A stretch of 64,000 bases of DNA from Polytrichum commune (taxonomy: Eukaryota; Streptophyta; Polytrichopsida; Polytrichales; Polytrichaceae), in contig OX485806.1 in the NCBI GenBank assembly GCA_950295325.1, positions 54,679,169-54,743,168 of the forward strand, written 5' to 3'. Below the pieces are notes generated by a model, which was given only the letters and a program-made list of their open reading frames with translations, ran no database searches and was not told the origin of the DNA. Position 1 is the stretch's first letter; each line of letters starts with the position of its first letter. Of this stretch, positions 1 to 61,875 are shown piece by piece. The translations under genes and the position numbers were made by a program.

Positions 1-1
1 T

Positions 2-1250
2 GTGGATACATTGCCTTATGGATTCGTATTATTGGAGGAGTCATTGGCATTCATGGGGAGTGTTGAAGACCCACGAGAGATGACACCTAAGAATGCCTTG
101 ATACGCCACCCCAAGGACCCTTTACCACTGTGGCGTGATTCCGTCAGCTTATTCAGAAGGTGTGAGGACATTGTCCTCTCTCTCGGTTCTACCACACCAT
201 GTATACCAGATACTCCATCCACGTTGGCACGTCCTATTTTGTGGCGCCCTCCAGACACGGGGATCACTTTGGTGGAGTTGTTTGGGGGCATCGGCACAGG
301 ATTAGCAGCCGTATTGGAGGTTGGCCTCACGGTCAAACAATATGTCTATGTGGACAACTCTTTAGTGTCCACCTGTGTGGCTCGTCACCATCTTCACCAG
401 TTGATGGTATTATACCCCCAGTAGTTACACCCAACTGCCATTCGTGGGTGTCTTTCACGTCTCCCTCATGATGTCACACTCATCAGTGAGGCCGACTTAC
501 GACACTTGGGCTCGGTGGGTATGGTGATTGCGGGATGGCCATGCCAAGGCCATTCACGTGCTGGAGCAGGCCGAGGTTTAGAGGATCCCGGGTCTAGCCT
601 TTTCTGGGACCTCATCCGGCTTATGCAGTGGTGGTTTACCCACCAACCTTCCCTTCCAGGGTATATATTCGAGAATGTACCTTTGTTTGGAGACTTTCGG
701 GACAAGGTGTTGGAAGGCGGTCATTATGTCCGTTAACACCTTGGAGATCCCATTTTCGTGGATGCTGCGAGCATTGGTTCTTATGCCCACCGGCCTCGGT
801 GGATTTGGACAAACCTCATACCGTCATCTACTTTAACTGCAGCATTTTCTGCAGTGCCTCCACCTTTGGATCAGAAGGTGGATGACATCTTGGATCCAAA
901 CCGGACCTCTTTGTCGGTTGTTCCAGATGATTTATCCCCATTGGCATTGGTCAACAAAGTGGGGGCACCACGGAGGGCCTTTCCCACCTTTACGACGTTT
1001 CCACAGTCATTCGCCTTCCGCGATCGGGGCCGGGTATGGTGTGGGATGCTAACACCAAAATCCACACCGAACCGTTGGCTGACAAACGGGAGCAGGCCAT
1101 GGGATTCCGCACTGGCACCACCGCAGCTCCTGGCCTTTCTGAGGGCCAACGACGCTTCGTGTTGGGCCAAAAGCCATGGATCTTCATACTATGGTGTGGA
1201 CTGTTGGTTTATGCCTTGCATTGCAACTGCATCATGCTGACCAGTTGTTC
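2..1250 (+). pseudogene. Cytosine-5 DNA methyltransferase module (DNMT3/DRM-like) of the retrotransposon
   Basis: Motifs appear in the usual C5-methyltransferase order. Motif I is ELFGGIGTG at 275-301 (SAM binding). An acidic YVYVDNS follows as motif II. Motif IV is GWPCQGHSRAG near 533-565, and the catalytic Cys (codon 542-544) is present. Motif VI is FENV, with ENV at 671-679. A motif VIII-like AHRPRWIWTNL lies at 785-817, and a motif IX/X-like segment ending LGQ...AMD lies near 1,100-1,185. The short spacing from IV to VIII and the AHR-x-R-aromatic form resemble DNMT3/DRM enzymes more than DNMT1/CMT. Family knowledge: such enzymes move a methyl group from SAM to C5 of cytosine. The copy is broken by TAG at 422-424, TAA at 734-736 and frame changes near 1,035 and 1,170. 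The last looks like two extra A's. Upstream residues are open to the window edge. The first stop could derive from CAG and the second from CAA, both by C-to-T change. Confidence 0.87.
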
Positions 1251-3195
1251 TCTCTGGGGGCAGAGGATTCTAGTCAGAGGGCACAGCAGTCCACATCCAT
1301 GGAGGAAGAAATTGAGGTCATGGTTGGAGAAGCTGAACGAATCTGTCGATTCAAGCAGCAGGTGATAGAGGAGCTCCGAGCTCAACGGATTTATACTGCT
1401 TTGGCTTCTTCACCTCCGGTGGTGGCTTCATCATCACATATTGGTGGTGATGAAAAGGGGATGGACTCTATTGCTAGCACAGAGGTTGGGGGCATGGTTA
1501 ATGCCTCCTCCTCTCATTAGCAGTTAGAGTCTGTGCCAACACCAGGTGGCTCTCTTCTAGTGGAGAGGGAGACCACACAGTTTGATGATTGACCATTGGA
1601 ATTGGGCCCTCATCTCACTGGTGCTGAGGCACAAAAAGTACGAGCATTTATTCGCTCGTACCGTAGGTGTTTTGCTTTTAGTCTTCAAGATCTTGAAGGT
1701 TATAAAGGAAAACCCATCCATATTTAGTTGAAGGACGACCATCCCATTTTTCGGAGACCTTATAGGCTCAGTGTTTCCAAGCGGATTGGCGTTTAGGCGC
1801 GTTGCCGAGAGCTCTTGGCAGCAAGGCTAATCGAACTGTCCAACGGGGAGTATGCTTGTGCTACGGTGATGCCATCGAAGAAGGATATCTTTGGCAATTG
1901 GACGGAGAAGCAAATGTGCGGGGATTACCGTCCAGTTAACCGGAAGACCAAGTCAAATCGGTATCCCATGCCAATCCCGGAGGAGTTGTCCGATGCCCTC
2001 GGATTTGCTCGAGTTTTTAGCACGTTGGACTTGAGATCCGGCTATCACCAACTCCCATTACTTGTGGGAGACCGGGTGAAAACCTCATTTTGGGGAGTTG
2101 ACTAAGATGGGAAGGATCAACTTTACCATTGGAAGTTTCTTCCATTTGGCCTGAAAAATGCGTCTGCCGAGTTTCAGAGAGTGATGGACCAAGTCCTCTC
2201 TGGTTTGCCTTTTGCTCGGTGTTGTATTGATGACGTGATCATTTTCAGCAAAACACCACAATAGCATGTAAGGCATCTTCAAGCCGTTTTTGAGCGATTA
2301 CAGCGGTGGGGATTGCGCTTGCACCATGGCAAGTGCAAGTTTTTCCATGACCGACTAGCATATCTGGATCATATGATTATTCCAGGAGGTCTTGGGGTGC
2401 AGCAAACTAAGGTGGACGCCTTGCAGAAGATTCCGGCACCGGTCGATGTGTCGAGACTTCGTGTTTTCTTGGGCTTGGCGAATTACTATCGGCGATTCGT
2501 CAAGAACTTTAGCTTGATCGCCAAGCCTCTGACCATTCTCAAGAGCAAGGACCAACCTTGGACTTGGGGTCGTGAGCAACAACAAGCATTTGAGACATTG
2601 AAGCAGAAATTGGGTGCGGCTCCGGTGTTTCGATGTCTGGATGTCTCCAAATCCTTCCAGTTGCGTACGGATTGGAGTTCATTGGGTTTAGGAGCAGTTC
2701 TCACTCAGAAGGATGATTTTGGCCGGGAGTATGTTGTTGCTTACTCATCGCGAAGCAACAATACGGCGGAGGCCAATTATTCATCCTATGAGGGGAAGGC
2801 ATTGGCGGTGGTGTGGGCTATTGTCCATTTCCGGCCATATCTTTATGGTCAGCGCTTTACCTTGGTGACTGACCATCAGCCGTTACGATGGCTCATGGAG
2901 TCGGATAAGCTTACTAGCAAGCTCGCCAGATGGGTTTTGTTGCTCCAGGAGTATGACTTTGAGGTGGTGCACCATACTAGCATTACCAACCTGGATGCAG
3001 ATGGACTCTCACGCAATCCAAGTCCTTCGGATGAGGACTTGACCGGGGCCAGGTGGCATGAGATTGTAATCAAGAGGCGGTTCCAGGTTGGCACGCGGCT
3101 GCTTACCTCACTCAATTTTCTGGTGCACCTGTTGAGGTTCCGATACAGGGCTCGGATGATGAGACTGATCGACCGCAAGCTATTGCGGATATATG
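1251..3195 (+). pseudogene. Ty3/gypsy reverse transcriptase and RNase H
   Basis: The linker downstream of the methyltransferase stays in the frame of the pol region, so both belonged to one polyprotein. RT is recognised by the CGDYRPVNRKT and LDLRSGYHQ blocks, the FLPFGLKNASAEFQRVMD block, and the active-site box at 2,223-2,234. That box reads CIDD where the family has YIDD, so both catalytic Asp are kept and Tyr is changed to Cys. FLGLANYYRRF follows near 2,470. RNase H shows the first Asp in a TDWSS context (codon 2,670), YEGKALAVVWA, VTDHQPLRWL and LDADGLSRNP. Stops fall near 1,588, 1,726, 1,795, 2,103 and 2,260. The frame leaves this register between about 3,060 and 3,190. No protease (D-T/S-G-A) motif was found in this interval. 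Confidence 0.9.
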
Positions 3196-4487
3196 GGAGG
3201 ACCTTCCCGTATTGCAAAAGCTTCAGCAGGGGACCTTTCCTTCGTTTACCTCGGCAATGGAAAGGGATAGGATTGGACATCGAATAACAAGGTTCCGTTG
3301 GGAGAACGGTTTGTTATTTCGATTATGATTGGATGGGACAAGGCGTATTGTCCCTAGACCGGATCAGAGGGCCTCCTTGGTGCGACAAGTGCACAAAGAA
3401 CTTGGCCATTTTGGCATACGCAAGACACATTCGATGTTGCGTGGCCAATATTGGTGGACTGGCATGTATCAGCACGTGGCTGCTTATGTCGGGAGGTATG
3501 AAGTTTGTGACCGGGTCAGGTCTAGCTTTAATACCTTGTCACCTTCAGTTACAACCCTTACCTATCATGGGATTGGGCTACCGTTGGTCGCTGGACTTTG
3601 CGGGGCTGTTGGTTGTCACGCCACGTGGAGCAAAGTACGTGTTGGTGATGGTGGAGCATTTTAGCAAGTGGATTGAGCTTGTTGCTTTACCCCAAAACTC
3701 TGCAGAGTTGGCCGCAGCCGCCTTTTTGGATCGTATGTTGGCACGTTTTGGAGCACTGGCTGAGGTATTGACGGACCAAGGGAGGGAGTTCCTCGGTGCT
3801 TTTGAGGAGTTGTGTACTAAAGCGCTCATAGATCACCGCACCACCTCTCGGGATCATCCGGAGGCGGATGACTTGGCTGAACGGGTTGTTCAAACAACCA
3901 AGCGTGGTTTGAGGAAGTATGGATTACTTCGGGGGAGCCACTGGGATTGGGACCTTATGTTGTCTTGGATTGCTATGGGCTATCGATTTAGTAGGCAAGC
4001 CTCATTGGCATCCTACAACCCGTATCAGTTGTTATATGGACGTGAGCCTATACTTCCGAGTTCTATTCGGGAAAAACTAGATCCTATTGTGGATTTGGAT
4101 GACCCTGACATTTGGGCAGAGTGTTTGCAGGAGCGGGCTCAATTCTTCCAGAGGGCCGTACCTATGGTCATGGAGAATTTGTCCATTGCTCAGCACCGTG
4201 ACACATTGCGTTATGCACGCATTCGCAGTGGTGCTTACCGACCTCAGTTGCGGAAATTCCGGCAGGGGGATTATGTTTATCTCCAACGTGAGGCGCCTAC
4301 GACATTGGATGTCAAGGCGGGGCGCACTATCCTTCGGGTGAAGGAGGTGTTGCCGAGTGGTTTGTTGTTGTTGGAAGGCAAGGATGGCAAGGAATGTCGT
4401 GAGCATTCCAAAAATTGTGCCCCATGTCATCTACCTATTGAGGGTGCAATTCATCATGAACTGGCCGTCGTGCCAGAGGGTCTTCCA
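3196..4487 (+). pseudogene. Ty3/gypsy integrase, catalytic core intact
   Basis: The N-terminal zinc-binding segment (about 3,330-3,530) is in a different frame from the core. It shows VHKELGHFGIRKTH followed by RYEVCDRV, where the first Cys of the C-x2-C pair is Tyr. Near 3,540 the frame changes to the long open frame 3,333-4,667. The core has all three acidic residues: D in WSLDFAG (codon 3,594), D in LTDQGREF (codon 3,774) and E in LAERVVQT (codon 3,879). The D-to-E spacing is 34 residues, close to the usual 35. Downstream are the conserved NPYQLLYGREPILP block and a C-terminal segment ending EHSKNCAPCHLP, likely the GPY/F-type region. The integrase inserts element cDNA into the host chromosome. 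One stop precedes the zinc segment, and the core itself is open. Confidence 0.9.
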
Positions 4488-4622
4488 TGCTTTGTATGTG
4501 GAGAGAAGAAAGGAGCGGCTACTATACTTTTATGTGATCAATGTCAACGCGGTTGGTACATGACATGCTTGAGGCCACCCTTGACTTCTCTACCATCTGG
4601 ACAGTGGAGTTGTCCTCGTTGT
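4488..4622 (+). other. PHD finger at the C-terminus of the retrotransposon integrase
   Basis: Residues 386-430 of the open frame 3,333-4,667 form a PHD zinc finger. Ligands are CFVC, then CDQC, then WY-x2-C, then CPRC, with the typical LRPPL after the third pair and Trp two residues before the last pair. Seven of eight metal ligands are Cys as expected. The single His is Tyr (CAC to TAC would be one C-to-T change), so the finger of this copy is probably impaired. Family knowledge: PHD fingers often read the histone H3 tail, unmodified or methylated. Many plant Ty3 elements (chromoviruses) carry a chromodomain at this place instead. Its position suggests a targeting role by analogy; that is inference. 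It ends 15 codons before the stop at 4,665-4,667. Confidence 0.87.
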
Positions 4623-4940
4623 CGAGGATCTTCGGTACTTGGTGTTTCCACCAATCGTATTCAATGATCATGTGTGGTTTTCATCATCTTATGCCTACCC
4701 AAATGGAAAATGAGGAGTTATGGCTTAGAGACGCAATCAACATGAGGTGGTGGATTTAATTCTTTGGGATCTGATGGCCAAACATCAGAGGCGATTAAGG
4801 ATGGGGCTCACCTTGCACCCAGCCTACAATTCCTTGGAATAACGTTTACCACATTAGTTAGTTGCGGAGCAATCTTTCATTATCCATGCCCTTTAGATTG
4901 GCATTGGTCCTAGCTGCTTGGCGGGACTTCATAGTCAGCT

Positions 4941-5050
4941 GAGGGAGGGGCATGTCAAGGTGTGTTGTTTATGTGTGACTTTGCTATATTTTAGTGTTGT
5001 TTGTTAATGGTGGTTGGTACTCGAGCTGCAGTGACACACGATCGCTATTT
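4941..5050 (+). repeat. Polypurine tract and start of the 3' LTR
   Basis: After the integrase-PHD frame come about 270 bp of untranslated sequence, then a purine run GAGGGAGGGGCA at 4,941-4,952, directly followed by TGTCAAGG. This is the expected arrangement of a plus-strand primer and the TG start of a 3' LTR. The LTR appears cut short where LINE-like A/C-rich sequence begins near 5,050. No CA end or target duplication was found. Confidence 0.6.
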
Positions 5051-6780
5051 ACACGACATATCAAACTATGCAACTAATTCATCCAATAAATATCACTTCA
5101 ACCCAAATCCAAGTCAAGCCTATGCCTCATTCACAACAATCATATGCATACATAGCCAAGGTTTCCCACCCACACACTACACCTTCACCCCACAACTCCA
5201 ACAAATCATTCAAGAAGCTCACAACCTACACATACCCACACATAACACCACATTTACCATGAAGCCATAAAAACTTAACATATTGGACAAATGGACGTAC
5301 TCCCCCCAAAACGTCTTACCCACTACCCACACCACCTCTAGTACAAATCCACGATAAACCAATTGACTTTATTCCCCCCAACCACAAAAATACACCTTAT
5401 CCCAAAGCATCTACACGGATGGGACCTTTATCCCACCAGACGATAAAGGAAATGGAAACCTCGCAGGATCAAGATATATAGCCAACTCAACAACATACGA
5501 ATTGCGGAAAAATTCCCAAGGTTTCAAAACATTTTCAGAGCAGAATTATATGCTATTTGGTTAGCACTTGCTAGCACATAAAAAATCAATCACGACATAA
5601 ATATTTTTTATGGATGGCCTCAATAGCATCTACCTCATTAACAACTACGTAAGTCACCCATCTTCCCAATATAATCACCCGGACAAACTGCTAATATCAT
5701 CTATAGTTCAACACATAACATGATTATGACACAAAACAACAATCCAAAAAGTTAGATCTCACACATGAATTAAGGGAAATGACATGGCCGACTCACTAGC
5801 AAATGATGGCACTTCAAAAGGCACCATAACACCCATATTGCGCATACATGTAGCCCACACCATACCATATGGATTAGCTAAACCTTACTCAAACACCAAC
5901 CTAACATGAATAATAAGGAACCTACAAATATTTGTAAAAAACATAACACAATAGGCCACCAAAGAAAACATCATAAATTTCCCACATGCATTAAAAAAAT
6001 GGCTCTCCAATGAGGAGATTCGCCACAAACTCTCTAACCAATTATGGACAAACCCCACAAACTACGGATGCACAAATCACACAACTTTTCAAGTTCCGAT
6101 TTGCCCAATAAATGGGCAATCATAGAAAATATATATGTTGGCTACACACACGAAAACCCCAACTGCACATTATGCCAAATTAACAACATAAATACTTGGC
6201 CGAACTTACTCAATCTATGCAACAATACAATTCTTAAAGGCCTAAGAATTGCAAGACATAATGTCGTTGCCCACCAACTCACCAACCCACTAAAATCAAA
6301 TGTATACACTAAACACCTCACACTCATTAATGTTGGTCACCAACATGGCAACCACCAAGACAACACCATCCCGCCATGGATACTAAGTTGCACATGCAAC
6401 TTTACACAATGTGAATGCCTCACAAAATTAACATTGGGTATTGTTTAATTACCAAGTGTTGCATATGAACAAAATGGTCCACTAATACCTACATTGGACC
6501 TAACCATCCATATCATTGAATTCACGCTTACGCATAATAAATTCCTTGACCAAGGCATACAAACAAAAGAAAACAAATTCAACCCATTAATAGATGCAAT
6601 AAGAGCACAAAGTTGGAATATTAGACCCTTCATAGTTATCATTGCAGGAGTAAGGGGAGCCATTCACACAAAAAACATAGAATTCCTTGAGAATCTACAT
6701 ATCCCCACATCACTAATAAAAAATAATGAAAAACATCCACTGAATAACCATCAAATATCTCACATACCTAGTACTTAATA
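5050..6780 (+). pseudogene. Degenerate LINE (non-LTR retrotransposon) 3' part with RNase H and zinc-knuckle tail
   Basis: Fragments in shifting plus-strand frames fit the C-terminus of a LINE polyprotein with RNase H. TDGTFIPPDD (about 5,415) matches the first RNase H motif. A DGLNSIYLI segment near 5,610 matches the third. GNDMADSLANDGTS (about 5,778-5,818) matches the last. Further on, open frame 6,044-6,448 holds CTLCQ followed by a LLNLC-x-N-x2-LKGLRIARHN stretch, like the zinc-binding tail of such polyproteins. Frame 6,494-6,778 continues the tail. The plus strand is A/C-rich throughout. The RT domain proper was not found, so the copy is 5' truncated, as LINEs often are. It sits directly against the 3' LTR of the preceding element. 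Confidence 0.7.
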
Positions 6781-6894: not shown

Positions 6895-8068
6895 AGAGCC
6901 CACCCACCGCGAGGTAGGCAGCTAACCCCACCCTGCACCAAGGGGATTCTTGAGTAGGGTAGGACCAATGGGCTCAAATTCACGTCGGATTGCCCAACGT
7001 TGGTTTCGTTTATTTTCTTGTGTTGGAGAGAGGGAATTATTATATGTAAACATACCTCTCATTCATCCAACAGAAAATCATGAAAAAATATGCAACATGA
7101 AGATTTACTTTTTAAAGTCGTTTTGACACTGGAATGAACTTTAGATACCTCAAATTAGTGTACATGAGATCATTTTAGATGAATCGACAACAAACTTATA
7201 AGGGGATCATGTTTTTATGTTGGATGGATGAGAAATGTCCTTTTACACAATAATTCCCTCTCTCCTGCTCTGCTGATGTAATTAAGGCGAGCTCAACCCT
7301 TGATCTATTCAATAGATATACGGTTTTGGAAACGTCCCTGGGTTGAGGCCCCACCACCACACATGGTGATTATGACTACCTACAGTAATTAGTGAATCGG
7401 ATTCTTAGCGTTCCAAGTTCTCAGTTCTCCAACATGGATTCCACACTAAAACAAGATATATTTACCATTTTGGGCCCATTGGGTTGAAAATTACCTAGAT
7501 TTCGGCCTGTTTATTCAGGGAGCTGCTGTAAGCCTGTGCGGTTGTTATGGCGGCAGATCCGGGTAATACGTAAACGATTTATTCAAATTTGAAATGCCAA
7601 ACCTTTTCGCCTCCTTCTGCACCCATTCCGATCATCCATTGGAACATAGATATGTGTAACATATCTAACATTTGCCCTCTTTATATTATCCTTGTGAGAG
7701 AATACGAAGGCACGTTCCTAACTTAAGCCCAAATGGCGAGAGCGCCGCATTTACTTAGGTGTCTCCTAGGTTTTGGGCTCGACGCCGTGCGGCAGGATTG
7801 GGAGCAGGTCTGAACATACAGGTCGATCATCAGTTCGCATTTACCTAGTGTTGTGGTATTGTGCTTATTGGTTACTTCTAGTGAAACTCGCTACACAGTG
7901 AAGGACGGGTAGGGTTTGGGAGTTACAGGAGAGAGAGGAAGAGGCACGACAGTGCAGCGAGATCGAAGCTGTGTCAGAACTTGGAGGAAGATGATTGTGG
8001 GGGGACGTCTGGTGGAGGTTGTGTGAACGGTGAGGATCAGGGAGAAGGGTGGAAATTGTTGACGAGGG
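6895..8068 (+). other. Upstream flank of the WD40-like gene
   Basis: No coding region was recognised in these 1.2 kb. The region up to about 7,270 is AT-rich and repeat-like. The part nearest the gene is richer in GC and includes a GA-rich stretch near 7,928-7,946 and a telo-box-like octamer. It is the likely promoter and 5' UTR, but no transcription start can be fixed. TGA at 8,060-8,062 is in frame with, and three codons before, the gene's ATG. Confidence 0.5.
7910..7917. promoter_or_regulatory. Telo-box-like motif TAGGGTTT
   Basis: TAGGGTTT (reverse complement AAACCCTA) lies about 150 bp before the start codon. Telo boxes are common in promoters and leaders of plant housekeeping genes. 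A single octamer is weak evidence. Confidence 0.35.
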
Positions 8069-11000
8069 ATGGATTCGATGAGCAGGGCGAGGATGCAGAG
8101 TAGCCCTAGACCAACATGTGGGCGGCGTGTAGTGGCAGGCAAGCGGCCACGACCTGATGATTTTAAGAATTGTGTTCGAAAGCTGCTGAAGCGGGAGATT
8201 AGCCGCGCAGGGAACTGGGCTTTCAATCGTACGAATTCACAAGAGAAATTTCGAAACTTTCACTTGCAGGTTGCACTTTCACTAGACATCGTGCCCACTC
8301 CATACCCGTTTCTCTTGAGGGCTTTGTGCGTTCCTCACCGAACCATTTCATTGTGGTTCTGGGCAGGTGCAGGGCTTAAGTTTCAACTTGGCCTTCTTAT
8401 TAATGCATAAGTTGAACCTCTGCGAGGACGTGGACATTGTCCCGAAGAGCTCTGTGTTTTATGCTCTTTGATAACTGCAGTTTGTGTAGTCTATGTTCAG
8501 TGGGTTCCCGGAAGAACTCGTTAGCGAACGTACCGTGGAGAGTAGAATGGAGCCTGGAAATGGGAGGGTGTGTCAGAGAGAGTATTGATTTTTTGTATTG
8601 GAGTGGAATAGGGCGGTGACAGTACCAAACCTCTTAACCTGCATTGAAAACTACAGACAGATCTTTGCATGACCTTCCTCAATGTCTAGGCTCTTCTACA
8701 AGGTCGAAGTGTAGTCATTGTTGGAGCTGCTAAAAGTGCTCAAACCCAATTATGGGCTCAAATTCTGCTTAGGAAAGACAATTGTAGTCCATATGTCACC
8801 TTCACCAAGTAATATTGTGGCCCTAGATTATAAGAGGTCCTGTTGAATAGAGTTGGCACATGTGTTGGGATAGCTTCGGTTCGTAAATGTTTACTTGTTG
8901 GCGTTGTCCAAGATTTGGTCACGTTGATGTTGTCTGCCATCATACTCGTAGTCTGGTCGAAGTTGTTAATGATTTGCACCACAGTTGCAGGGGTTGTTTT
9001 AAACTGAGTTAGGTGATTTGATTAATACTGCTGTACTCGCTTGTGCAATGATACGTAGGTGAAGACAATTTACTTACTGCTGTCTCGTGTTGTTGCAGGA
9101 GGAGTTTGACACACATGACCCAAAAGCCCACCATTTCTTAAAGCTACCGTTTCTCAAGAAACGATCACGGATTGTGGAGATCGTTGCCGCTAGAGATACA
9201 GTCTTCGCTCTGACACACTCAGGCATCTGTGCAGCCTTCAGTCGAGGTATGATGATATCTATTCTTGGTTTTCCTACTTTTTGGGTTTGGATACTTTTGT
9301 TTTAGGTCACAGTGTTTTGATGGTGTTTTTTATGTTGCATGATAGATACAAACAAGCGCATCTGTTTTCTCAACATCAGTGCAGATGAAGTGATCCGCAG
9401 CCTTTTCTACAACAAGAACAATGAGTCATTGATTACCGTATCAGTTTATGCCTCTGACAACTTCAGCTCCTTGAAGTGCAGAACGACTCCCATTGAGTGA
9501 GTTCAATTTGAGTTCATTCTGCTTTAGATTGTTGACATTGTGGTTGACAAATGCTGATTGAGGCTTTTAGGAAGTTGTTTGCAGGTCACCTAGGTTAATT
9601 TTGCTTTTCTCAACTTGCAGAATCGCATACTACTATCATGAAACACAGCCATCATTATTCTGCATGTCTTTATGAGAGGGCAATAGGATGTAAGTATGGG
9701 TGTCTTGTTTTTGAGCGAGTCAGCAACAGTTCAACTAGGTCCATCAAACCTTATCAACTGGCAAGCCTGGGAGCCAGAAAGTGTTATCTAGCCGTTATTA
9801 TTCTGCTTCACCTTCATCTAAATGTGAATTAACTTATCTAAATGTGAGTTGTGTGTTATAGATACATACGGAGGGGGCAGCCCGATGCTGGTTTTCCTCT
9901 TTTTGAGTCAGAATCACTTCGGTGGCCTGGTTTTGTTGAATTCGATGATGTAAATGGCAAAGTCCTCACCTATTCTGCACAAGATTGGTATCACTTAACC
10001 CCTATGCAGCTATAGATTTCCATATGTTCTGAGCTTCTCTTGTGAAGTAATTGCAAAACTTGAGTGGTCTTTTGGGGAGCCCTTGAGGTTCACTACACTG
10101 ATTATCCCAATGCGTGCGTGTTACTATCTGAAGTTATGCAGTGTTATCTGAAGTTAACTATTTATCGAGAATGTTATATATTAAAAAGCAAAGTCATTCA
10201 TGTGCAATATTGTGCCTGAACAACCTATTGAACTTTTGGTAGTAAAAATTGAACTCCTGAGTAAGATGTTATTGCACTGCATGACTCCAAATAGTAACAC
10301 GCACTAATTCGGATAATCAGTGTAATCTAGTTTAGATCAACAAGGGTATATTGTATTTTCACAATTGATGTATATTGATGATTCACAAGTGCTGTATCTT
10401 GTCCAGTATTGTTGCATGGGTTACCAGAGAGTGGTAAACAACATTGAATTGTCGATTTTCCATGTGCTATTGAGAATGTGGACAGCATATACAAGGTTTT
10501 TGACTTGAAGAATTACACTATGCTGTACTCCATATCTGATGAACATGTCCAAGAAATTAAGATCAGGTATGCATACATTAAATATTTTTCTTGCACCAAG
10601 TTCTGTAGTTGGCTTTTATTTTATGACCAATAGGATTTTGTAACACATTCTTCAGGGTAAATTTCTCTGCTGTGATCATGGGATATGTTGGGAAAGTTTT
10701 CTGGATTCTGATGAAGGTGAAAGGGAGTGCACTGTTGACTGAACTTTTTTGGCTTTGTAGCTATTGTCATTTTTAGGAACCTTGTTATGTAAGTATGGTC
10801 CAATTGTAGAAGCCCATGTGTTTCACTGTCTTGAAGGCTAATTGTTAGAAGGCATAGATTCTGGCCAGGCTGTTCAGATAGTTTGCTTTGTGGACTGGTG
10901 CCCTTTTTAAATGCAAAGATTGAGGATATTGTGGTTCTGAACATTTCTTTGTGACACGTATGCTTGGACCAGCCCAGGAATCATGCTGTTGATATTTAAT

Positions 11001-12086
11001 CGCGCCCAAAGCCATGTGCCATTGAAGATCTTGTCAATAGAAGATGGTTCAGTGTTGAAAGCTTTCAACCATTTGTTGCACCGGAACAAGAAAGTCGATT
11101 TCATTGAACAATTCAATGAGAAGCTGCTTGTTAAGCAAGAGAATGAGAACCTGCAGATACTTGATGTGTGGTCTTCTTTTCAAAGAACTACTGAATTATG
11201 CTGATTTTTTAGTATCTTGTTGATTAATGTTAATGGTTCAAAGCAGTTGAAAATTCTGTTGTGATATGTGTTTGATAGTACAAATATTTCTAAGTAAATA
11301 GCATATGTTCACAGCCAATACTTTATTGCAAGCATTAGTTGCTTATTGTCAATTGTATGTGGCAGGTAAGGAACTCCCAGCTCACTGAAGTGAGCAGAAC
11401 GGAATTCATGACACCTTCAGCATTCATTTTCTTATATGAGAATCAGCTTTTTCTTACATTCCGGGACAGGACAGTTGCTGTATGGAACTTCAGAGGGGAG
11501 CTAGTGACATCATTTGAAGACCATTTGTTATGGTATCCTGATTGCAATACAAATAATATCTACATCACCAGTGAACAGGATCTCATCATATCTTACTGCA
11601 AAGCCCATCCAGACAACAATGCAGAGGAGCCTGGTGAGTTGCTACTTTTGTAGGTTTGAGGTGGAGAAATTTGTAGATTGTAATGTAGAAATGCTGTTTC
11701 TACAATATTATTTGAAAAGGGAATCACTCCTGTGGATTTGTGTCTGGTTCTTGATATATTTACAAGAAGCTCTGTGTGCCTGGAGAACGCTTGTCATGTT
11801 CATTTGGATACAGGATTCATAATCCCCATCTAGTGACAGAATTGGATCTTTGGGTGCAGTTGGTTCAATCAATATCAGCAATATCTTAACTGGAAAGTGC
11901 CTTGCTAAGATCAGGGCAGATGACCCTAGTGTTGTAATCTGTCCTCTTTCACGGCCAAATTCCTCCAACATCAGAAGCTCAGTACAAGAAGCTCTAGAGG
12001 ATGTTACAGCATTGTTTTATGATGAAGAAAGGAACGAGATCTATACAGGGAATCGACATGGACTAGTCCATGTCTGGTCAAACTAG
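8069..12086 (+). CDS. Conserved plant Transducin/WD40-repeat-like protein, eight exons, intact
   Basis: Spliced model by GT-AG borders and frame: 8069-8269, 9099-9246, 9346-9496, 9862-9987, 10486-10566, 10973-11165, 11366-11633, 11860-12086. The exons total 1,395 nt, giving 464 codons plus TAG, with phases that match at every junction. The start is fixed by an in-frame TGA at 8,060-8,062; the ATG has G at -3 and +4. The N-terminus is basic (KRPRPDDF, CVRKLLKREI). The body reads as beta-propeller-like repeats, for example VFALTHSGICAAF, RTVAVWNFRGELVTSF and a closing GNRHGLVHVWSN. I recognise it as the widely conserved plant Transducin/WD40-like family of unproven function, and name no symbol. 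WD40 propellers usually act as binding scaffolds. The exon 5 start (10,486) is the least certain border. An ORF at 9,638 lies inside intron 3. Confidence 0.87.
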
Positions 12087-15289: not shown

Positions 15290-16018
15290 GGCTAGTCTAA
15301 CCAACTAGCCTAACTAGCTAGCCACTAACCCAAGCTTCATTCAAAGTAACCAGCTGGGTCTAACCAGCAGTCACTTCAAACTAACCAGCTGGTCTAACCA
15401 CAGTCACTTAAACTAACCAGCAGTAACTTAGACTAACGAGTTGGATTAACTACAGTCACTTCAAACTAACCAGCTGGTCTAACCACAGTCACTTAAACTA
15501 ACCAGCTGGTCTAACCAACAGTAACTTAGACTAACCAGCTGGGTTTAACCAGCAGTAACTTAAACTAACTAGTTGGGTTAACCACAGTCACTTCAAACTA
15601 ACCAGCTGGTCTAACCACAGTCACTTAAACTAACCAGCTGGTCTAACCAACAGTAACTTAGACTAACCAGCTGGGTTTAACCAGCAGTAACTTAAACTAA
15701 CCAGTTGGGTTAACCACAGTCACTTCAAACTAACCAGCTGGGTTTGACCACAATCACTTAAACTAACCAGCTGGTCTAACCAGCAGTCACTTCAAACTAA
15801 CCAGCTCGGTCTAACCACAGTCACTTAAACCACCAGCTGGGTTTAACCAGCAGTAACTTAGACTAACCAGCTGGGTTTGACCACAGTCACTTAAACTAAC
15901 CAGCTGGTCTAACCAGCAGTCATTTCAAACTAATCAGCTGGGTTTAACCACAGTCACTTCAAATTAACCAGCTGGTCTAACCAACAGTAACTTAGACTAA
16001 CCAGCTGGGTTTAACCTG
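15290..16018. repeat. Minisatellite of about 32-bp units
   Basis: More than twenty imperfect units built from AACTAACCAGCTGG, TCTAACCA and CAGTCACTTA or CAGTAACTTA alternate over about 730 bp. Higher-order blocks recur, for example the run around 15,460-15,560 repeats around 15,590-15,690. The array lies between the two copies of the family A LTR-start segment. The units are contiguous, without spacers. Confidence 0.95.
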
Positions 16019-16386
16019 CCTGCACCGAGTCCAACCTGCCTGCAAACGAGTCTAGCAGCTCCAGGCTTCGGCCAACTACTAACCATAAAATCAAATGCCT
16101 TGATTTAAATACTATAACTCTAAATACTAAAGTCTAAATACTATAAATCTAAACACTATGAGTCTAAATACTATAAATCTAAATGCTAGAAGTTGAATAC
16201 TATGAGCTAAGCACTTGTTTCTAAATGCCTTAAATCAAACACTAACTACATCTAACAATGTAAAGCTAACTTCAAGACTAAATGGTCTTGGCTCTCCACC
16301 TTAAAACCTTGCACACCCACGTTCCCCTTTCTTGCTCCACACACACCCACACTTATAACACATGGGATGCTAAGGGAACAAGAAGG

Positions 16387-16797: not shown

Positions 16798-17752
16798 TTG
16801 TTCTCTTTATTCATTTGTGTTTCGTAATCGCTACTCTTTCATAGGCGTTAGTTAGCATAATCATTATGAGCTCGATTGATAGTATAGATGAATGTTTTGA
16901 ATTTCTTGATTCATTCCTACACGATCTGGTCAGATATGATGCGGCCGAAGATTGAAAGAGCAAGCCCATTGCCAATCTCGTGATGGCACTGGATGAGGTG
17001 GAGGCATTCTTGAACATGTTCCTTGATTATGTCTTGGCACAACGGTGGCAACTTTACATCAAGCGTTACTCTATCGAGTTAACATTGGCACCCAATTCAT
17101 CAATGCAATCATTGACCTTGAGGGAGTCGAAGACAGGCCAAAGATCATCATCATTAGGTGTCACGACGACAATGTCCATGCTGCAAGCTGTGGATGTGCA
17201 ACATTGATCAGGTGGAATTGGTGGCTCACATCAGACGGTGATTTGGCGGCAACACCATCTTCCATTAGCAAATCGAAAGGAGACTGCTCCTAATCAGAAG
17301 GTATCATCATGAATCTGATCTAGAGCGGACTGTCGGAGCGCGAGATTCGAGCCATTTTGCCTATCGGTGGCTCAAAGATTAGTCGATTACATAAGGTACC
17401 TACTCATAAAATGGACAATCTTCGCACTCGTCGTCCCCCATGCTTTCGTGCTCATGCACTTTCTGTAGCCGACCTTCTAGTGATAAAGGCAGACGTGCTG
17501 ACGTGGGAGATTGAGGACGGTTTCCCCGTGCCTATCGGCGTCCTAAGTAGTATCTTGAAGGCCACATTCTCTTCGCTCTATGAGCGCTACAAGGCGAATG
17601 TTAAAACCACCAATGACAGTGGTCGCGTTTTATCTTATTCACGCTGGATCCAGTACATTCACATGTTATGACTTGGCCTTCACTTGTCTCAAAGCGCCGA
17701 GGACGTATGTGATTGCTGCGTTCTAATCAAGATTCAGCTCGCGTGCGACGAC
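16798..17752 (+). pseudogene. Decayed transposon ORF, possibly transposase, 5' part
   Basis: Plus-strand frames 16,980-17,207, 17,045-17,293 and 17,357-17,671 look like one degraded reading frame. The clearest part has LPIGGSKISRLHKVP, then SLYERYK, then LSYSRWIQYIHML. After one TGA the same frame continues with EDVCDCCVLI up to the LTR at 17,753. The C-x2-C-containing layout is reminiscent of transposase-like proteins of dispersed repeats, but I cannot name a superfamily. The frame reopens on the far side of the LTR at 18,591 once the LTR and one target copy are removed, which supports a real former coding sequence. Confidence 0.45.
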
Positions 17753-18590
17753 TATCGCACACCTCTCCATGAGGAATGCCCGAAAGACCATGAACATAAG
17801 GGGGACCCTGGAATGACACCTAAGACTTGTGGCGTCGTTGGTGAGAGGCCCCAAGACATTTGAGTGTGGGTGAGGGCCCCGGAAGTTGGGAACGCCTCCC
17901 ATCCACGGAGACTAGGAGGCACGAGGATAAGGCCATAAGCTGTACGTAGCTTATGGTGTGTAGATTTTAGAATGCTCAAGAACAGCTCAATCAAAGGTGT
18001 GATCTAGGAGTTATGGCAATTTGAGTGGGGCGTTGTCCCGGGACAACGCCCTGGTACAACAATGGTTTGGGAGTGGCTCCCGAGACTGTCAAAGTTTGAA
18101 CATGCATAACTTCCTCAATATTTGCCCAAATGGGACAAGTGAGAAGTCCATCGGAATCTACGTGAAAGAGAGACAAAAGGTTTCTTGACGATGGGGTAGG
18201 GGCCCCGGCAAAAGTACTAGAGGCTTATATGGGTGAGGTAATATGGCCTCATCCACCCGAGGCCGAACGGCAGGGCCTCCATGGGCTTTGGCCCAATGTA
18301 AGGGCATAGTTAGTATGGTTCGGGTTGTTATAGTGTTGCTCTGGCAACGCAATGATCAACATAAGATTTGACTTCCATTCATGGAAGTCCACATCTAAGA
18401 ATTGGTTACTGATTAAGGGGAGAGTCCCGAAAGCAAAGTAGGAGGGTTGGTTCCCCTCTTATGAACTATAACGTCCAGGGTAAGGAGAGCTAATCATTAG
18501 CATGGCGGAATGCAAAGGGTTAGCGCTCGTGATCCTTGGTAAAAATGAAAATGGGCAAGATTGTTAAGGGGTCTAGCAAGGGTTGCGACA
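17753..18590 (-). mobile_element. Solo LTR, family B
   Basis: Minus-strand LTR of 838 bp, starting TGTCGCAACCC (at 18,590) and ending GCGATA (at 17,753; other copies end GCGACA). Target copies are ACGAC (17,748-17,752) and ACAAC (18,591-18,595), one G/A difference. A 24-bp perfect palindrome lies at 18,028-18,051. The insertion splits a transposon reading frame. Confidence 0.85.
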
Positions 18591-19563: not shown

Positions 19564-19568
19564 CAAAT

Positions 19569-40440: not shown

Positions 40441-40444
40441 TCTT

Positions 40445-49101: not shown

Positions 49102-49439
49102 CAAATGGCGTTTGAATGAATTTATGAATCCTCCAAGAGATATCCAAAAATTGCAAGAGCATGTGTATGCAATGTATCCCAAGTTTAATGAACATGATTG
49201 CATGGCGCTTTATAAGAGCTCACCATGAAGAATTGATGTTTTGTTAAAAAATAAGGATTACTGGACCAATTACTAAAGATTTTGTACACAATTTGAACAA
49301 AAATGAGTATCCATACATAGTATCTCATTTGGCTTTGGAACATATTATTTTACTATCAATGTAATGTGAAATTTTGCATACATGTGCACAAATTTGTGCA
49401 ATATCATATGCAATTTTCAAATATTTAGAAAACATATCT

Positions 49440-56400: not shown

Positions 56401-56690
56401 TATACTTTGTTCATGTTCCACATTAAGTCGTGGAACCTCTTTACTCTTTTCCATTGAGCTAGTATCTTATTATTCCAACTAGACTTTGGGTATTCCCACA
56501 GCCAACGATTCACGAGTCTTTTAGTATCTGTGTCTTTCACAAGATCATTAATTATGTACGACTTATTTACGTTTGTATTCTCCACACTTTGCAAAATCTC
56601 CCTTCTTATAATTTGACGTGTCAAGTGGTTCATTGAAGTAATTTTGTTTGGAGCTCTATCACGGTATGTGGCATCGGTGGCCACAACTTA
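53500..56690 (-). pseudogene. Ty3/gypsy gag and leader of the same minus-strand element
   Basis: In minus sense the frame 56,684-56,328 (start MATDATYRDRAPNK) looks like the gag N-terminus, with basic and Trp-containing segments. Zinc knuckles lie near 54,700-54,610 (CRRCCNESHYPNEC and a second C/H cluster). Lys-rich frames 54,176-53,751 and 53,811-53,521 follow toward pol. The order gag then pol (49.7-52.7 kb) on the minus strand fits one old element of about 7 kb. No LTR was identified beyond 56,690. Confidence 0.6.
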
Positions 56691-57289
56691 TCCGTGGGAT
56701 TTCATTCATTTAGATTTGGATGGATGAATTCTAGAAGTTGGAGAGATGTTCCTAAATAAGGAACCTCCTCCTTAGCTTGGCATTCTTGCCAAGTCAAGCC
56801 TTGTGAGTGAGTGTATAGAGAGGGTTTGTTTGAGGTGAAGATTGCATGTTTATGCAATAAAATCTTAAGTTCTTCTCCTTTTACTTACAATCATGGATTC
56901 TCCCATGATGGAGTGAGAGACAACTTGATTCATTATGTGCATTTGAAGAGAGAATTAGAATTTTTACTAGGGTTTGACTATCTTCCTTCTCGTTTGGCAA
57001 TAATCATTTTTATTTTATTTTTATTTTTCTCTCTTAAGATATAACATGAAAAAAAAACGCAAGCACAAGGAGTGGCAAAGTTGCAGAGTGTTAGAACAAA
57101 AAACATCGCGGATTTGGAAAGTTATAAGAAGAATTTTTTTTTGTGAATGGCACATTAAAGTGACTTATGATGATGAATCGTTGAATTGTCCACAAAATTT
57201 CTTGTCAATTAGTCGCTTGCAATTTTGGATTCATGCCATTGAGCTCTAAGATAGCACTATTGATTCTAATTCAAATATAAATTCATTAA

Positions 57290-57993
57290 TTAAATAAAAA
57301 AGAGAAGAAGGAGATGACTTTGGGAGCTGAAACCCTTGGTTGGCTCCGGTAATTCTTGGCTGTAACGGCCATCCGGCTTGCAGCAGGCAGACAATCCCTC
57401 CCTCCTCCCTTCTCCCTCTTTCCTTCTCTTCCCCCCCCTGTCTAGGCCCATACCTATATCCGTTGTCTCCCCCCCTTGTCCCCCCTTCCTTCCTTGTCTA
57501 GGCCCTTCCCTCTCCCCTTTCTTTCCCATGGCAAGCGCGGTTGTGTGCAGTCTATTTCAATTCATGCTTAAGTGTTGTTTGAAGAAGAAGATCCAGTGTT
57601 GGAATTACATTATTTTTTGTATTTTGTTTTGGTATCTTCCCCCGTGGCGAGTTATGTTGCTGGAAATTATTGGCATTGTCCTATTTTGTATTATGCTAGC
57701 TTGTGATAAGGTATCGTGGAGTGAGGTCGGAGTGTTTACCGACGGAATTTTTGTGTGTGCACCAAATGGGCAATATTTGTATTCCCTAATGGTGAGGTTG
57801 GGTTAATGACCAATAAACCATAAGGTTGGTGGTGGTTGTAAGTGCAAGTTTTTTTTCATATTTTTTATTTTTATGTTGATATTTGATTAATGTAGATTGT
57901 TGGCTGGAGTTACATGACTTATTATGAATTTTTGGTTACAATTCAAAGCCAATATTATCATTCTCCATTTTCTAGAAGCATTGGAAGGTTGAT
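57290..57993. other. Polypyrimidine-rich tract and flank of LTR D
   Basis: From about 57,393 to 57,530 the plus strand is almost entirely C and T with a few breaks. The open frames across it are low-complexity (Pro/Ser/Leu or Gly/Arg/Glu). No gene is supported. Confidence 0.7.
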
Positions 57994-59213
57994 TGTGGTG
58001 TTTTTGGGCACCCCCTTCCGAGGGAGCCTAAAAATACCGCACATGCCCTTCGGTGAGGGTGGCCTGCCTTGGCAGGTGCCCAAGCCGAACCCGGGTGTTT
58101 TGATATTTAATGGGTGTTTTGGGTTTACGGAGGAATTTGATAATCGCGTCGTATCCTTCCGATAGGTTGTGCCTAGATTTTAAGTGCCTAAGGTTATTAT
58201 CAAGTTTCCTAACTTAATGCCTAATCTATCATAGTCTACACGCAGACGCACCAGCCTTGGGATCAAGGCAACCTAACCCTAATGAATGAAATAATCTTAA
58301 GTTTTACCTTGGGCCACCTCTAATTCTTTACTTCATATATATGAAATTCACTAAACGGGGGGACCTTAATTAAGTCCCACCCTCTCAACCTTCATTCTTA
58401 GTTTATGGTTGATTGAATAAAGCCTATGTTACTAAGTTCATAATTTATGGCATCACCACCTACCTATTTGGTGCACACCCTATCTCAAACCCTTCAAGGC
58501 CCTCTGTGGGTTCTTTGAAGGTTGATTGATATTTACACCCTCCGATCTTTGTCGTCGGAGGGGTAGTTTCAATTCTCCGAGTTAAGTTTCCGGTTGGTTT
58601 TTGCCCACGGGGTCGTACGAATTTTGTTGGTTATTAATTAATTTAACACGGTTTGACCACGAAAATTGAACTTGATGGGACCGGAGAATAATGCAACATG
58701 TGTATTCAACTTGCACAATCTTCAAGGGTTGGGGCCATCACCTTCAACCCTTGAGGCCAACAACATGATGGTGGTTTCATGGGTCATTACTCCCACTTTA
58801 CCACCTATCAACATACACAGTGGTCATGCCAGTGATTAACCCGGCTTCACCACACACGAACGAGCTATGAATGGAAAGCTACTACCACAACATTTAATCG
58901 AAAGGCTCCGCATACATGGGAGTTAGATGCCCCCCTAGCCTTACATGGATAGTTGGATTGGGGTGAAAATTTACCTTTGCCGCATTTCCTCCATTCCTAA
59001 ATTGAATGGTGTAGGGTTAAAAAACTTACCGAGTGACTCCCATCTAGGTTTGGTGATGGTTGGTGTGGAATCCCTACTCCAACGCTAGGCCGCCCACAAC
59101 ACCAACTCGTACCCGCCAACCTTGGATGGACAAACCTCTTCTCGTAAGGCAGCAGACATCCCTTCGCTTAAACGACCACAACTTTTATTCACAAGAAAGT
59201 CAACTCTTATATT

Positions 59214-60420
59214 TTAAGAGGCAGCTATGATACCTTCTGTCGCGTACCTCTCCATGAGGAGTGCCCGAAACACCATGGGCACAAGGGGAACCCCAGAGTG
59301 ACACCCGGGACTTGTGGCACCGTTGGTGAGAGGGCCCAAGTGATCCTAGTGTGGGTGAGGGCCCCGGGCGTTGCGAACGCCTCCCACCCATGGAGACTAG
59401 GAGGCATGAGGGTAAGGCCATGAGCTATGTGGAGTTCATGGCGTGGTAATTCTAGAATGCTCAAGATCACCTCAAGCCGAGGTGTGAGCTAGGAGTTATG
59501 GCCATTTGAGTGGGGCGCTGTCCCGGGACAGCGCCCTGGTACAGCAGTGCCTGGGAGTGATTCCCGGGACTGCCAAAGTTCAAACAGACATAACTTCCTC
59601 AAGATTTGCCCAAATGGGGCAAGTGAGGAGTCCATAGGCATCTACGTGAAGCGTAGATGAAGATGGAGTGGTTGGTTGTTCTGATCAGACTTTATACAAG
59701 GAAGTTATGATGGTCTGAAGCTGCTGGGGGGGTTCTAGGCCCAGCAGCTAAAGGAAAATGTCCACTTGGCCCCAACTCTTGGTAGAGAGACAAGAGGTTG
59801 GTTGACGGTGGGGTAGGGGCCCCGCGTAGAGTCCTAAAGGCTTATATGGGTGAGGTGGTGTGGCCTCACCCACCCAAGGCCAAACGGCACGGCCTCCATG
59901 GGCATTGGCCCAATGTGAGGCCATAGTTGCCTAGTATGGTTCGGGTTGTTGTAGTGTTGCTCCGGCAATGCGATGATCAACATAGGATTGGACTTCCATG
60001 GATGGAAGTCCACATTTGGGAATTGGTTACCGATTAAGGGGTGAGTCCCGAAAGTAAAGTAGGAGGGTTGGTTCCCCTCCTATGAACTATATGGTCCGGG
60101 GTAGGAGGAGCTAACCATTAGCATGGCGGAATGCGAATGGTTAGCACTCGTAACCTTTGCTAGAAATAAAAATTGGCAAGATTTTTAAGGGGACTAGCAA
60201 GGGTTGCGACACCTTCATTCAAACACTCATAACTTTCACTTTTTAAATCCGATTGTAACAAACTTATACTTTCTAGAAAACTAACAACACGAATTATAAT
60301 GCGTTAGAATATCAAAAAAATTGAATCATTTCTCTTTTAGTTATGCGCTTGCAAAGTCAGCGCTTGTAATTTAAGAGGCAGGTGAGACACCTTCATTCAA
60401 ACACTCATAACTTTTGCTTC
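59214..60420. repeat. Tandem pair of a ~178-bp unit inside LTR D
   Basis: TTAAGAGGCAG, then a few bases, then ACCTTC occurs at 59,214 and again at 60,371, each followed (the first after the nested LTR) by ATTCAAACACTCATAAC. After removing the nested LTR and one target copy, the spacing is about 178 bp. The second unit is the empty site of the family B insertion in the first. Confidence 0.8.
59238..60211 (-). mobile_element. Solo LTR, family B, youngest-looking copy
   Basis: LTR of 974 bp with mirrored ends TGTCGC and GCGACA and identical target copies CCTTC (59,233-59,237 and 60,212-60,216). It contains a 24-bp perfect palindrome at 59,513-59,536. Minus frames 59,421-59,200 and 59,470-59,225 recur in other copies and are not genes. 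Confidence 0.95.
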
Positions 60421-61299
60421 CTAATTTTGATTCTAACAAAAAATTTGGAAAGCTAATATAAAGGGCTACATTCACTCAAAATGTGAAGGCTAACTTGTAG
60501 TATTTGTGTCCACTATACTTGCTTGAAAGTGACACAACTACTTAGGGGTGTGTTAAAAAATACACTACCTTCTCTCAAGAGTTCTAACTATAAGAATTCT
60601 AATTTATACCTATATTGAATGAATGATATTTTCTTTTCTCCTTTTAAATACAATTCTCGAGGGCTTTGCCGTGCAAAAAATAAAAATTTGGAACGATTAT
60701 TGAAAGGGGAAGAGGGGGATTTTATCACCCTTCAAATGAAGGGTTGGGCCCTTTCTCCCTTCCGCTCACCGAGGGGTGTTGTTTCTTGAACGGTGGCAAC
60801 CAAACCCTCGGTGGCGAAAGGGAGGAGGGATGCCACCTCACACCCCACTTGCTCAAGCCCTTAGAAAGGCTTTTCCATTTCTGTTTGAAAATCATTTTTA
60901 GTTGGCAAGGGTGGCAACATGGCCCCCTTACCCTAGTTGGCAAAATCCCTTACGCTCGTAGTTGTCAATTTTTTTTTGGCCGCTTTCGGAATTACCCTTG
61001 TTTTGTCGCCGCTTGACTTTTGCTTGCTTGATTTGATTGTTCCTAATTTAACCTACCTACTAACTAGCCTAATACTTTCACGCTTCCGATTCGGGTAAAG
61101 GGCATTTCCATTTTATTCTTTCGGTTTTTAAGTTCTACTTGCCTAAGAGTTTTACCCCAAGGATAAAACACCCCTAGCCAACCTACCTTAATTTAAATGG
61201 TTTTTTTGCTAAATTTTCCTATTACTAATCTAATGATTTTGCTAAAATACCTCAATTATGAGCCAAATTGCCGTTGGGGCAATTTTGACGCTCACATCG

Positions 61300-61875
61300 A
61301 TCCTCTGATCTCTTAGACGTTGAGTTAGTATAGCACCTGACGAGGTTTTTCAACCTACTTCGGCATGAAATACTATCATTCGGTCTCATGTTCTTTTGGT
61401 AGGAACCTTTGACGTTATGAAGGAGGAGACACGAAGTGGAATCCGAAACCGGTTATTTGATCAAGCAAGAACCATTTCCCTGCAATATTGGAAAATTCGG
61501 TTTAAGACGAGGCTGAGGGCGAGACGTCAACACAATACCAGTTTTAAAGACTTATATTTGTTCAAGCCTTTATCCCAACACTTGAAACACGGAGTACTCC
61601 AAACCTTTGAGCAATGGAAAGATGTTCATTGGTTGGAGTTGTGGTATGTGGAGTGATACCGAGATACTCAAATGGAGTTGGTTGTTACATTGAAGAAAGA
61701 CACGGTTTCAAATTCTTCAGCCGTTTGTGTAGCTAACTCGGAGACATTGGAGGAGATATTTGTAGTGCATGTGGAGGAAATTTTTCCTGATGAATATGAG
61801 GAGAAGGTTCCTGCCTTTGAATTCATAAGTACGTTGAGCCCAATCTTTTCACTCTCCCATTATGCCCAGTCTGCA
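61300..61875 (+). pseudogene. Unrecognised reading frame cut by an LTR A end
   Basis: Frame 61,396-61,875 is open apart from one TGA (61,654-61,656). The first part is basic (RNRLFDQARTISLQYWK, KTRLRARRQHN). The second is acidic (EEIFVVHVEEIFPDEYEEK). It stops where LTR A-type sequence starts at 61,876. No family is recognised; a transposon protein fragment is likely from context. Confidence 0.35.

Follow-up and report, generated by a model that had tools for sequence, protein, structure and literature searches.

A Ty3/gypsy retrotransposon family of the moss Polytrichum commune encodes a DNMT3-like methyltransferase upstream of a candidate readthrough stop and a PHD finger behind its integrase

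The first kilobase of a 64,000-nucleotide stretch of Polytrichum commune DNA (contig OX485806.1, positions 54,679,169 to 54,743,168 of the forward strand; hereafter the window) reads as a broken C5 DNA methyltransferase (DNMT) followed by a gypsy reverse transcriptase (RT). Does the enzyme belong to the retrotransposon, or is it a neighbouring host gene that happens to adjoin it? An earlier note on this locus, made from the sequence alone, took the first view, proposing a methyltransferase captured by a Ty3/gypsy element and a range of such elements extended to a land plant. We find that window 1-5058 holds the 3' part, now decayed, of one copy of a Ty3/gypsy family that is present in high copy number in a moss host, and that the methyltransferase is a component of this family.

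The motifs named in the earlier note, including PCQ and ENV upstream of a gypsy RT, are present, with matches well beyond chance. The middle frame piece of the window DNMT (425-736) matches PF00145 in Pfam (E 1.7e-9), and residues 88-273 of the frame-2 translation align to DNMT3A (E 1.8e-7, phmmer against PDB). Frame 2 holds motifs I, IV (PCQ), VI (ENV), and VIII (AHRPRW), motif IX is in frame 1, and motif X is in frame 3. In-frame stops occur at 422-424 and 734-736, and frame shifts, located by eye, lie near 1030 (2 to 1) and 1165 (1 to 3). Among 6,686 candidate proteins, 67 are relatives at E <=0.001, with identities up to 88% across part of the query. Downstream, the RT match (C4:54680746-54681558, which is window 1578-2390; E 7e-174) is 91% identical to the RT of an open copy, and the separate RT pieces give RVT_1 matches below the Pfam curated cut-off. 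The one-frame linker from motif X into RT described in the note holds in part: a tail from motif X onward is in the RT frame, but it contains several stops, and the rest of the DNMT lies in other frames. Likewise, the extent given there, 2..1250, covers the DNMT but not the element, which continues through RT, RNase H, integrase, and a PHD finger to 5058 and which, when the copy is extended upstream (L031), shows CCHC and protease motifs just 5' of the window. The proper object is therefore the whole element, not the methyltransferase alone. Since the window copy is decayed, a working enzyme could come only from other copies. Compared with three copies of the same subfamily over the DNMT, RT, and integrase pieces, the window copy shows C-to-T changes at 27/211 CHG, 20/225 CG, and 51/841 CHH sites, which fits ordinary host methylation plus decay, with no element-specific signature.

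A scan of the genome (408 Mb, 64 contigs) identified at least 123 C5-methyltransferase loci (123 scored of 353 PF00145 candidates, all above the cut-off), one of which (L050) is a host DRM gene with rearranged motifs, and at least 142 element RT loci (142 scored of 1,581 candidates). At 69 of the 142 scored RT loci, a DNMT match lies on the same strand no more than 6 kb upstream, and in 67 of these the spacing falls between 1,081 and 1,311 bp (2,822 and 4,087 bp in the other two). Open frames of at least 1,300 amino acids (aa) occur at 19 of the 123 PF00145 loci. Because this spacing recurs, and because in long-frame copies the enzyme shares one open reading frame (ORF) with Gag and protease, the evidence supports the methyltransferase as a component of the element rather than a host neighbour. 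Nor is it found only at this locus, a case that the earlier note had named as contrary to its proposal.

To describe the family we used 19 element stretches (L031-L049), i.e. the window copy (L031) and 18 further copies that were picked largely for long frames and are not a random sample. The copies fall into two diverged subfamilies, A (which includes the window copy) and B. Uninterrupted copies, which the earlier note had suggested searching for, do exist: both frames are full-length in five of the 18 further copies (L040, L043, L045, L046, and L047), with an ORF1 of 1,366 or 1,386 aa, an ORF2 of 1,047 or 1,048 aa in the same frame, and one stop between them. The order of the family is A1, ORF1 (Gag, CCHC, protease, DNMT3-like), UAG CAR YYA, ORF2 (RT, RNase H, integrase, PHD finger), B1, A2, B2, where A and B are terminal repeats. 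In Pfam searches of two ORF pairs (L043 and L046), ORF2 matched RT, RNase H, integrase, and PHD, while ORF1 showed protease-like and DNMT matches, joined in L043, but not in L046, by a CCHC match. The protease and CCHC scores fall short of Pfam cut-offs; by eye, ORF1 displays a DSGAQ protease motif and two CCHC-like motifs. The order RT, RNase H, integrase with an rve core is that of Ty3/gypsy elements. In the same two ORF pairs there was no Pfam match to a tyrosine recombinase, the integrase being of the DDE (rve) type, and no match to PWWP or ADD at E 0.01. No chromodomain match was found at the integrase C terminus at the thresholds used (Pfam); a PHD finger is in place there, with conserved zinc ligands (Table 1). 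Its nearest PDB chains by sequence include the PHD fingers of CHD4, PHF12, ATXR5, KDM5, and UHRF1, and its motifs point to a putative preference for unmethylated H3K4.

The junction between the two frames is TAG CA[AG] T[TC]A in 30 of 30 loci (L001-L030; 11 of subfamily A and 19 of B). Between the subfamilies, identity is 0.86 over this 9-mer but drops to 0.52 and 0.66 in the flanking 60 nt on its upstream and downstream sides, respectively. Because the UAG is identical in these 30 other loci, TAG 1518-1520 in the window copy is a conserved feature and not a sign of decay. UAG CAR YYA is the tobacco-mosaic-type (Type I) stop readthrough context. The moss element has this exact context at an in-frame junction; it differs from the tobacco-mosaic-type case in that the stop separates a Gag-protease (PR)-DNMT ORF from RT. 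The predicted readthrough would put the methyltransferase on the Gag side, ahead of the switch. An independent relative from a metagenomic contig (L051, see below) has the junction TAG CAA TCA and the same layout as the moss copies.

Which class of enzyme is this? A profile of an 18-row alignment of relatives, in which the PCQ-ENV core is conserved, matches DNMT3A best among PDB chains (E 6.8e-20), the next classes being 4onj (1.4e-10), HhaI (3.3e-9), and DRM2 (1.6e-8); 4onj, named only as a DNA methyltransferase, is presumably tobacco DRM. The predicted structure has a mean predicted local distance difference test score (pLDDT) of 74.7 and a predicted template-modeling score (pTM) of 0.79, with low confidence in residues 228-292, likely the target-recognition part. 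Among the 50 matches listed, it aligns with DNMT3A/DNMT3B chains at E 2e-15 to 2e-13, with template-modeling scores that reach 0.76 by target and 0.61 by query. With its canonical motif order and DNMT3 as best profile match, the element enzyme is DNMT3-class as judged by profile and predicted fold. It resembles DNMT3A/DNMT3B and plant DRM in catalytic motifs and fold, whereas the canonical motif order sets it apart from DRM.

The DNMT also looks to be under purifying selection. The ratio of nonsynonymous to synonymous substitution rates (omega), computed by the Nei-Gojobori method on the 13 of 31 rows with an open DNMT frame, has a median of 0.109 between subfamilies (16 of 32 pairs usable; synonymous divergence, dS, 2.4, saturated), 0.238 within A (maximum 0.409; 6 of 6 pairs), and 0.388 within B (maximum 0.779; 24 of 28 pairs). 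Between L043 and L040, omega is 0.118 for DNMT, 0.034 for RT, 0.023 for integrase, 0.086 for PHD, and 0.51 for the linker after the DNMT.

The closest published element is KnitGypsy-Dnmt3 of Klebsormidium nitens (de Mendoza et al. 2018, PMC5890265). Judging by its published description, it shares with the moss family the Gypsy domains, a Dnmt3-type enzyme in the coding frame, purifying selection on that enzyme, and DIRS-like repeats in the order A-coding-B-A-B (PMC5890265). It differs in that its DNMT is described within the Pol polyprotein ORF, whereas the moss DNMT is in the Gag-PR ORF before the UAG, and in that the moss integrase carries a PHD finger, a term that occurs 0 times in the main text of that paper (PMC5890265); the moss host is a further difference. 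On this comparison by published description, the moss family is of the same kind as KnitGypsy-Dnmt3, but we do not place it in that named family, because host, position of the DNMT, and PHD finger all differ. SymbioDIRS-Dnmt3 and SymbioLINE-Dnmt are also retrotransposon-borne DNMTs, and the former shares split repeats and two domain orders, but they use tyrosine recombinase or long interspersed nuclear element (LINE) machinery, whereas the moss element has a DDE integrase and 4-bp target duplications (PMC5890265). Chromoviruses, including moss Tcn1-like elements, are described as having a histone-reader-type domain at the C terminus of a Ty3/gypsy integrase (PMC3350952); in our element this is a PHD finger, with no chromodomain match at the thresholds used. 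The hosts reported for DNMT retrotransposons in the literature searched are Klebsormidium and dinoflagellates (PMC5890265; PMC12344493), and retrotransposon DNMT3s are reported for streptophytes and dinoflagellates, with Copia and DIRS elements named (PMC12344493). In the open-access literature searched, we found no report of a DNMT-bearing retrotransposon in a land plant, nor of a PHD finger on a Ty3 integrase. The gene next to the window copy is WD40-like (exons at window 8063-12083), with identities of 94% to Ceratodon purpureus, 90% to Sphagnum, Riccia, and Diphasiastrum, 84% to Chara, and 78% to Klebsormidium (over about two-thirds of the query, among 120 of 850 matches listed). This neighbour is moss-like, and the range of DNMT-bearing elements therefore reaches land plants, as the earlier note had anticipated.

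DNA methylation is a main weapon of plants against transposons. Given that defence, it is paradoxical that an element should maintain a methyltransferase of its own under selection. We think it likely that this moss Gypsy family uses a leaky UAG to load the DNMT into particles, where it would methylate the element's complementary DNA (cDNA), and a PHD finger to steer integration, functions that we infer from the architecture. Few ribosomes would read through the UAG, giving mostly Gag-PR-DNMT and little Gag-PR-DNMT-Pol, and because the former would predominate, the methyltransferase would enter virus-like particles at Gag-like amounts. It would then methylate cytosines of freshly made cDNA, either ahead of integration or during it. 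The PHD finger, at the position of the chromovirus chromodomain, would steer the integrase to nucleosomes of a given H3 state, and the split repeats would imply replication via the B-A junction, not ordinary LTR (long terminal repeat) renewal. The likely benefit is that a copy would land premarked, so that the host would be spared and defences against unmethylated foreign DNA escaped. Jumping DNA may thus arrive equipped for self-marking and for choosing its landing site. With many copies, some of which look young, a candidate expression switch, and an integrase reader domain, a moss host would let the purpose of retrotransposon DNMTs be tested in a land plant.

Several observations weigh against this reading. 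The junction sample (L001-L030) consists of the 30 best-scoring DNMT loci and is not random. In the relatives P0079, P0154, and P0168, DNMT and RT are fused in one ORF without a stop, and readthrough is therefore not general across the wider group. The DNMT is less constrained than RT and integrase in the L043-L040 comparison; half of the pairs between subfamilies are unusable because dS is saturated, and omega, coming from open-frame rows only, is biased low. At 73 of the 142 RT loci there is no partner among the 123 listed DNMT loci; the window copy, which does bear a DNMT, falls among these 73, which are thus evidence of neither absence nor presence. Finally, the elements are not CpG-depleted, with observed/expected ratios of 0.62-0.77 in 19 copies vs 0.50 in window 7001-64000, and therefore carry no footprint of strong CpG self-methylation. 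This argues against heavy CpG self-methylation, or for methylation that is brief or non-CG. CpG depletion as a self-methylation footprint was accordingly rejected, none of the 19 copies showing it.

Some of these points would suit a different role, in which the DNMT fold persists because it serves the Gag particle structurally or by binding nucleic acid, without DNA methylation. The location of the DNMT in the Gag ORF, its weaker constraint, and the lack of CpG depletion would all be expected, and KnitGypsy-Dnmt3 was inactive in yeast, a result described by its authors as inconclusive (PMC5890265). However, of 26 rows scanned, 25 retain both the motif IV catalytic Cys and the EN[V/A] of motif VI, and 22 retain the motif VIII pattern (none of the three is found in P0105, and P0062 and P0170 have ECQ in place of PCQ). 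In the 18-row alignment, the columns that never vary are concentrated in the core spanning motifs IV to VI. We therefore regard a purely structural role as unlikely. Somewhat less probable again is that the main targets of the enzyme are the host genome or rival elements, rather than the element's own cDNA. High copy number would favour such targets, and SymbioDIRS-Dnmt3 domains are reported to methylate CGs of the yeast genome (PMC5890265), but fusion to Gag-PR would predict packaging into particles, and no result of the present analysis favours nuclear action.

We give as little credence to a UAG that just terminates ORF1, with ORF2 expressed by re-initiation, from an internal start, or from a spliced RNA. 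The ORF2 relative P0068 does start with a Met shortly past the junction, a kind of start that gene callers choose, but ORF2 follows in the same frame without a gap, and UAG CAR YYA is kept in the 30 loci and in L051.

The history of the enzyme was approached through its relatives. The integrase-to-PHD region has 241 relatives at E <=0.001. Among the best 120 of these, PF00628 is present in all but P0097 and P0154, and PF00145 in at least 15, Haematococcus and Volvox being among those named; the count of 15 is a lower bound, as a good number of the proteins listed are incomplete or begin downstream of the DNMT. The DNMT precedes RT in P0079, P0154, and P0168, and it lies between RNase H and integrase in P0123, P0142, P0145, P0152, P0155, P0162, P0165, P0166, P0170, and P0185. 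P0105 (Volvox) has only a degenerate DNMT-like segment, and in P0062 (Closterium) CCHC is joined to DNMT. In a DNMT tree, from which P0105 was left out, 25 rows (elements or DNMT-only fragments) split from DNMT3A and host DRM with support 99/97, these two being the only outside rows, each with 47% of columns filled and on long branches. Twelve rows with the order RNase H-DNMT-integrase (two of them partial) form one clade (100/99). In the integrase tree, a 10-row group includes the moss copies (98/95), ten rows of the RNase H-DNMT-integrase class make up a second group (100/98), and P0123, P0170, P0105, and P0070 are outside both. These trees fit an old association of DNMT and element, in which the position of the DNMT may have shifted or the domain may have been gained twice. 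Capture by a Ty3/gypsy element, as first proposed, thus stands insofar as the DNMT belongs to the element, but it does not look like a single recent event, because two diverged moss subfamilies and relatives with two domain orders carry the enzyme. More tentatively, a Gypsy clade spanning the green lineage may carry a chromatin kit consisting of a DNMT3-like writer and an integrase-linked PHD reader. Its moss branch, with split-repeat ends, would have put the writer at Gag level through the leaky UAG, with self-methylated cDNA, histone-guided integration, and pre-silenced arrival, while the DNMT would have moved between two polyprotein positions (before RT, or between RNase H and integrase) or been gained twice.

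A recent origin as a bacterial or phage modification methylase is very improbable. Streptomyces and IMG/VR sequences resemble the enzyme in generic motifs (29-44% across short segments), which could suggest it, but structurally DNMT3 is the best class. In the GTDB genome collection, a pattern scan limited to sequences fitting two short patterns returned 52 stretches with 5 relatives, one of them with the full domain. This one (L051; CADCWO010000201.1, filed under a Synechococcales cyanobacterium metagenome-assembled genome) encodes a DNMT-UAG-RT-integrase-PHD element, with the PHD visible in translation and a methyltransferase 65% identical to ours, and it looks like a misbinned eukaryotic-type element. 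Two scans of IMG/VR found no element, the first giving no relative and the second seven remote methylases. Recent bacterial origin was rejected, the sole full-domain GTDB relative being itself element-bearing. The two ends of the L051 contig overlap by 63 bp, which a collapsed assembly, or a circular one, would show. A close relative of the element DNMT labelled Candidatus Obscuribacterales (P0009) is likely misbinned eukaryotic sequence.

The ends of the element raise a last structural question. With A1 at the 5' end, the 3' arrangement is B1-A2-B2 in 13 of the 19 stretches; B1 has no A2 directly after it in three (L031, L040, and L044), no B2 lies within the stretch in L036, and no 3' repeats are seen in L032 and L034. 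No identical complete LTR was found at both ends, and the family shows a split-repeat variant. Chromoviruses have ordinary LTRs. In 3 of 3 copies with both ends, 4-bp target duplications, identified by eye in the flanks, stand just outside TGTC...GACA (the A1 and B2 ends): CCAC and CAAA (L033, L049) and TCTC (L039). The B-A junction GACAGCTGTC is present in moss copies and in L051. It is hardly credible that nested or tandem insertion of an element with ordinary LTRs produced the B-A-B end as an artefact. Its absence from six of 19 stretches would be in keeping with an artefact, but 13 share it, the duplications lie exactly outside A1 and B2, and the same junction recurs in L051; ordinary LTRs were rejected on the 13 of 19. 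A1 and A2 are 97.5-99.8% identical in ten copies, over 124-443 bp of mostly partial repeats cut by the stretch end, and because of this identity the insertions compared look young. The ends without A2 could be a true monomer integration form or could result from recombination of one B repeat with another. L040, one of these three, has both ORFs full-length, and L044 nearly so.

A host methyltransferase gene or fragment merely adjoining a retrotransposon, to which the broken frames and the not directly readable join of the window copy might lend some colour, can be dismissed with near certainty, being refuted by the recurrent, near-fixed spacing (67 of the 69 joins at 142 RT loci) and by the single long ORF, in copies that have decayed less, that encodes it together with Gag and protease, while the host DRM gene (L050) has rearranged motifs and a different sequence.

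Table 1. Element features and related sequence along the window
Feature	Position	Strand	Basis
Decayed DNMT3-like C5 methyltransferase	2..1240	+	Motifs, Pfam, phmmer; frame changes by eye
UAG CAG UUA, ORF1/ORF2 junction	1518..1526	+	Sequence; fits UAG CAR YYA
Ty3/gypsy reverse transcriptase, frame 3, five internal stops	1578..2390	+	91% identity to open copy's RT
RNase H domain	2565..2954	+	PF17917 E 2.1e-36, PF17919 E 1.1e-31
Integrase: H2C2 zinc-binding in frame 2, rve core in frame 3 after a frame break	3359..3860	+	PF17921 E 2.1e-16, PF00665 E 2.3e-14
PHD finger	4488..4622	+	PF00628 E 9.7e-9; eight invariant zinc-ligand columns (15-sequence alignment)
Terminal repeat B, 106 bp, ends GACA; copy stops here without A2-B2	4953..5058	+	Repeat comparison
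Second element fragment, 5' part, of a related element	56656..61788	+	Repeat A 81%; 5'/Gag part of L043 69-73%

The second fragment is broken by other sequence from about 57990 to about 61301. Right after the end of the window copy, 5059-6780 is LINE-like by eye, with RNase-H-like and zinc-knuckle-like peptides; a Pfam search of 6038-6445 gave no match. Elsewhere in the window, five dispersed repeats of about 0.8-1.0 kb, 73-92% alike and in both orientations, occur at 17752-18590, 36004-36970, 41410-42269, 48130-49104, and 59235-60211. An inverted pair of 0.9 kb, 95% alike, is found at 18648-19568 and 39521-40441, and 15337-16019 is a tandem-like array of overlapping direct repeats that are about 79-92% alike.
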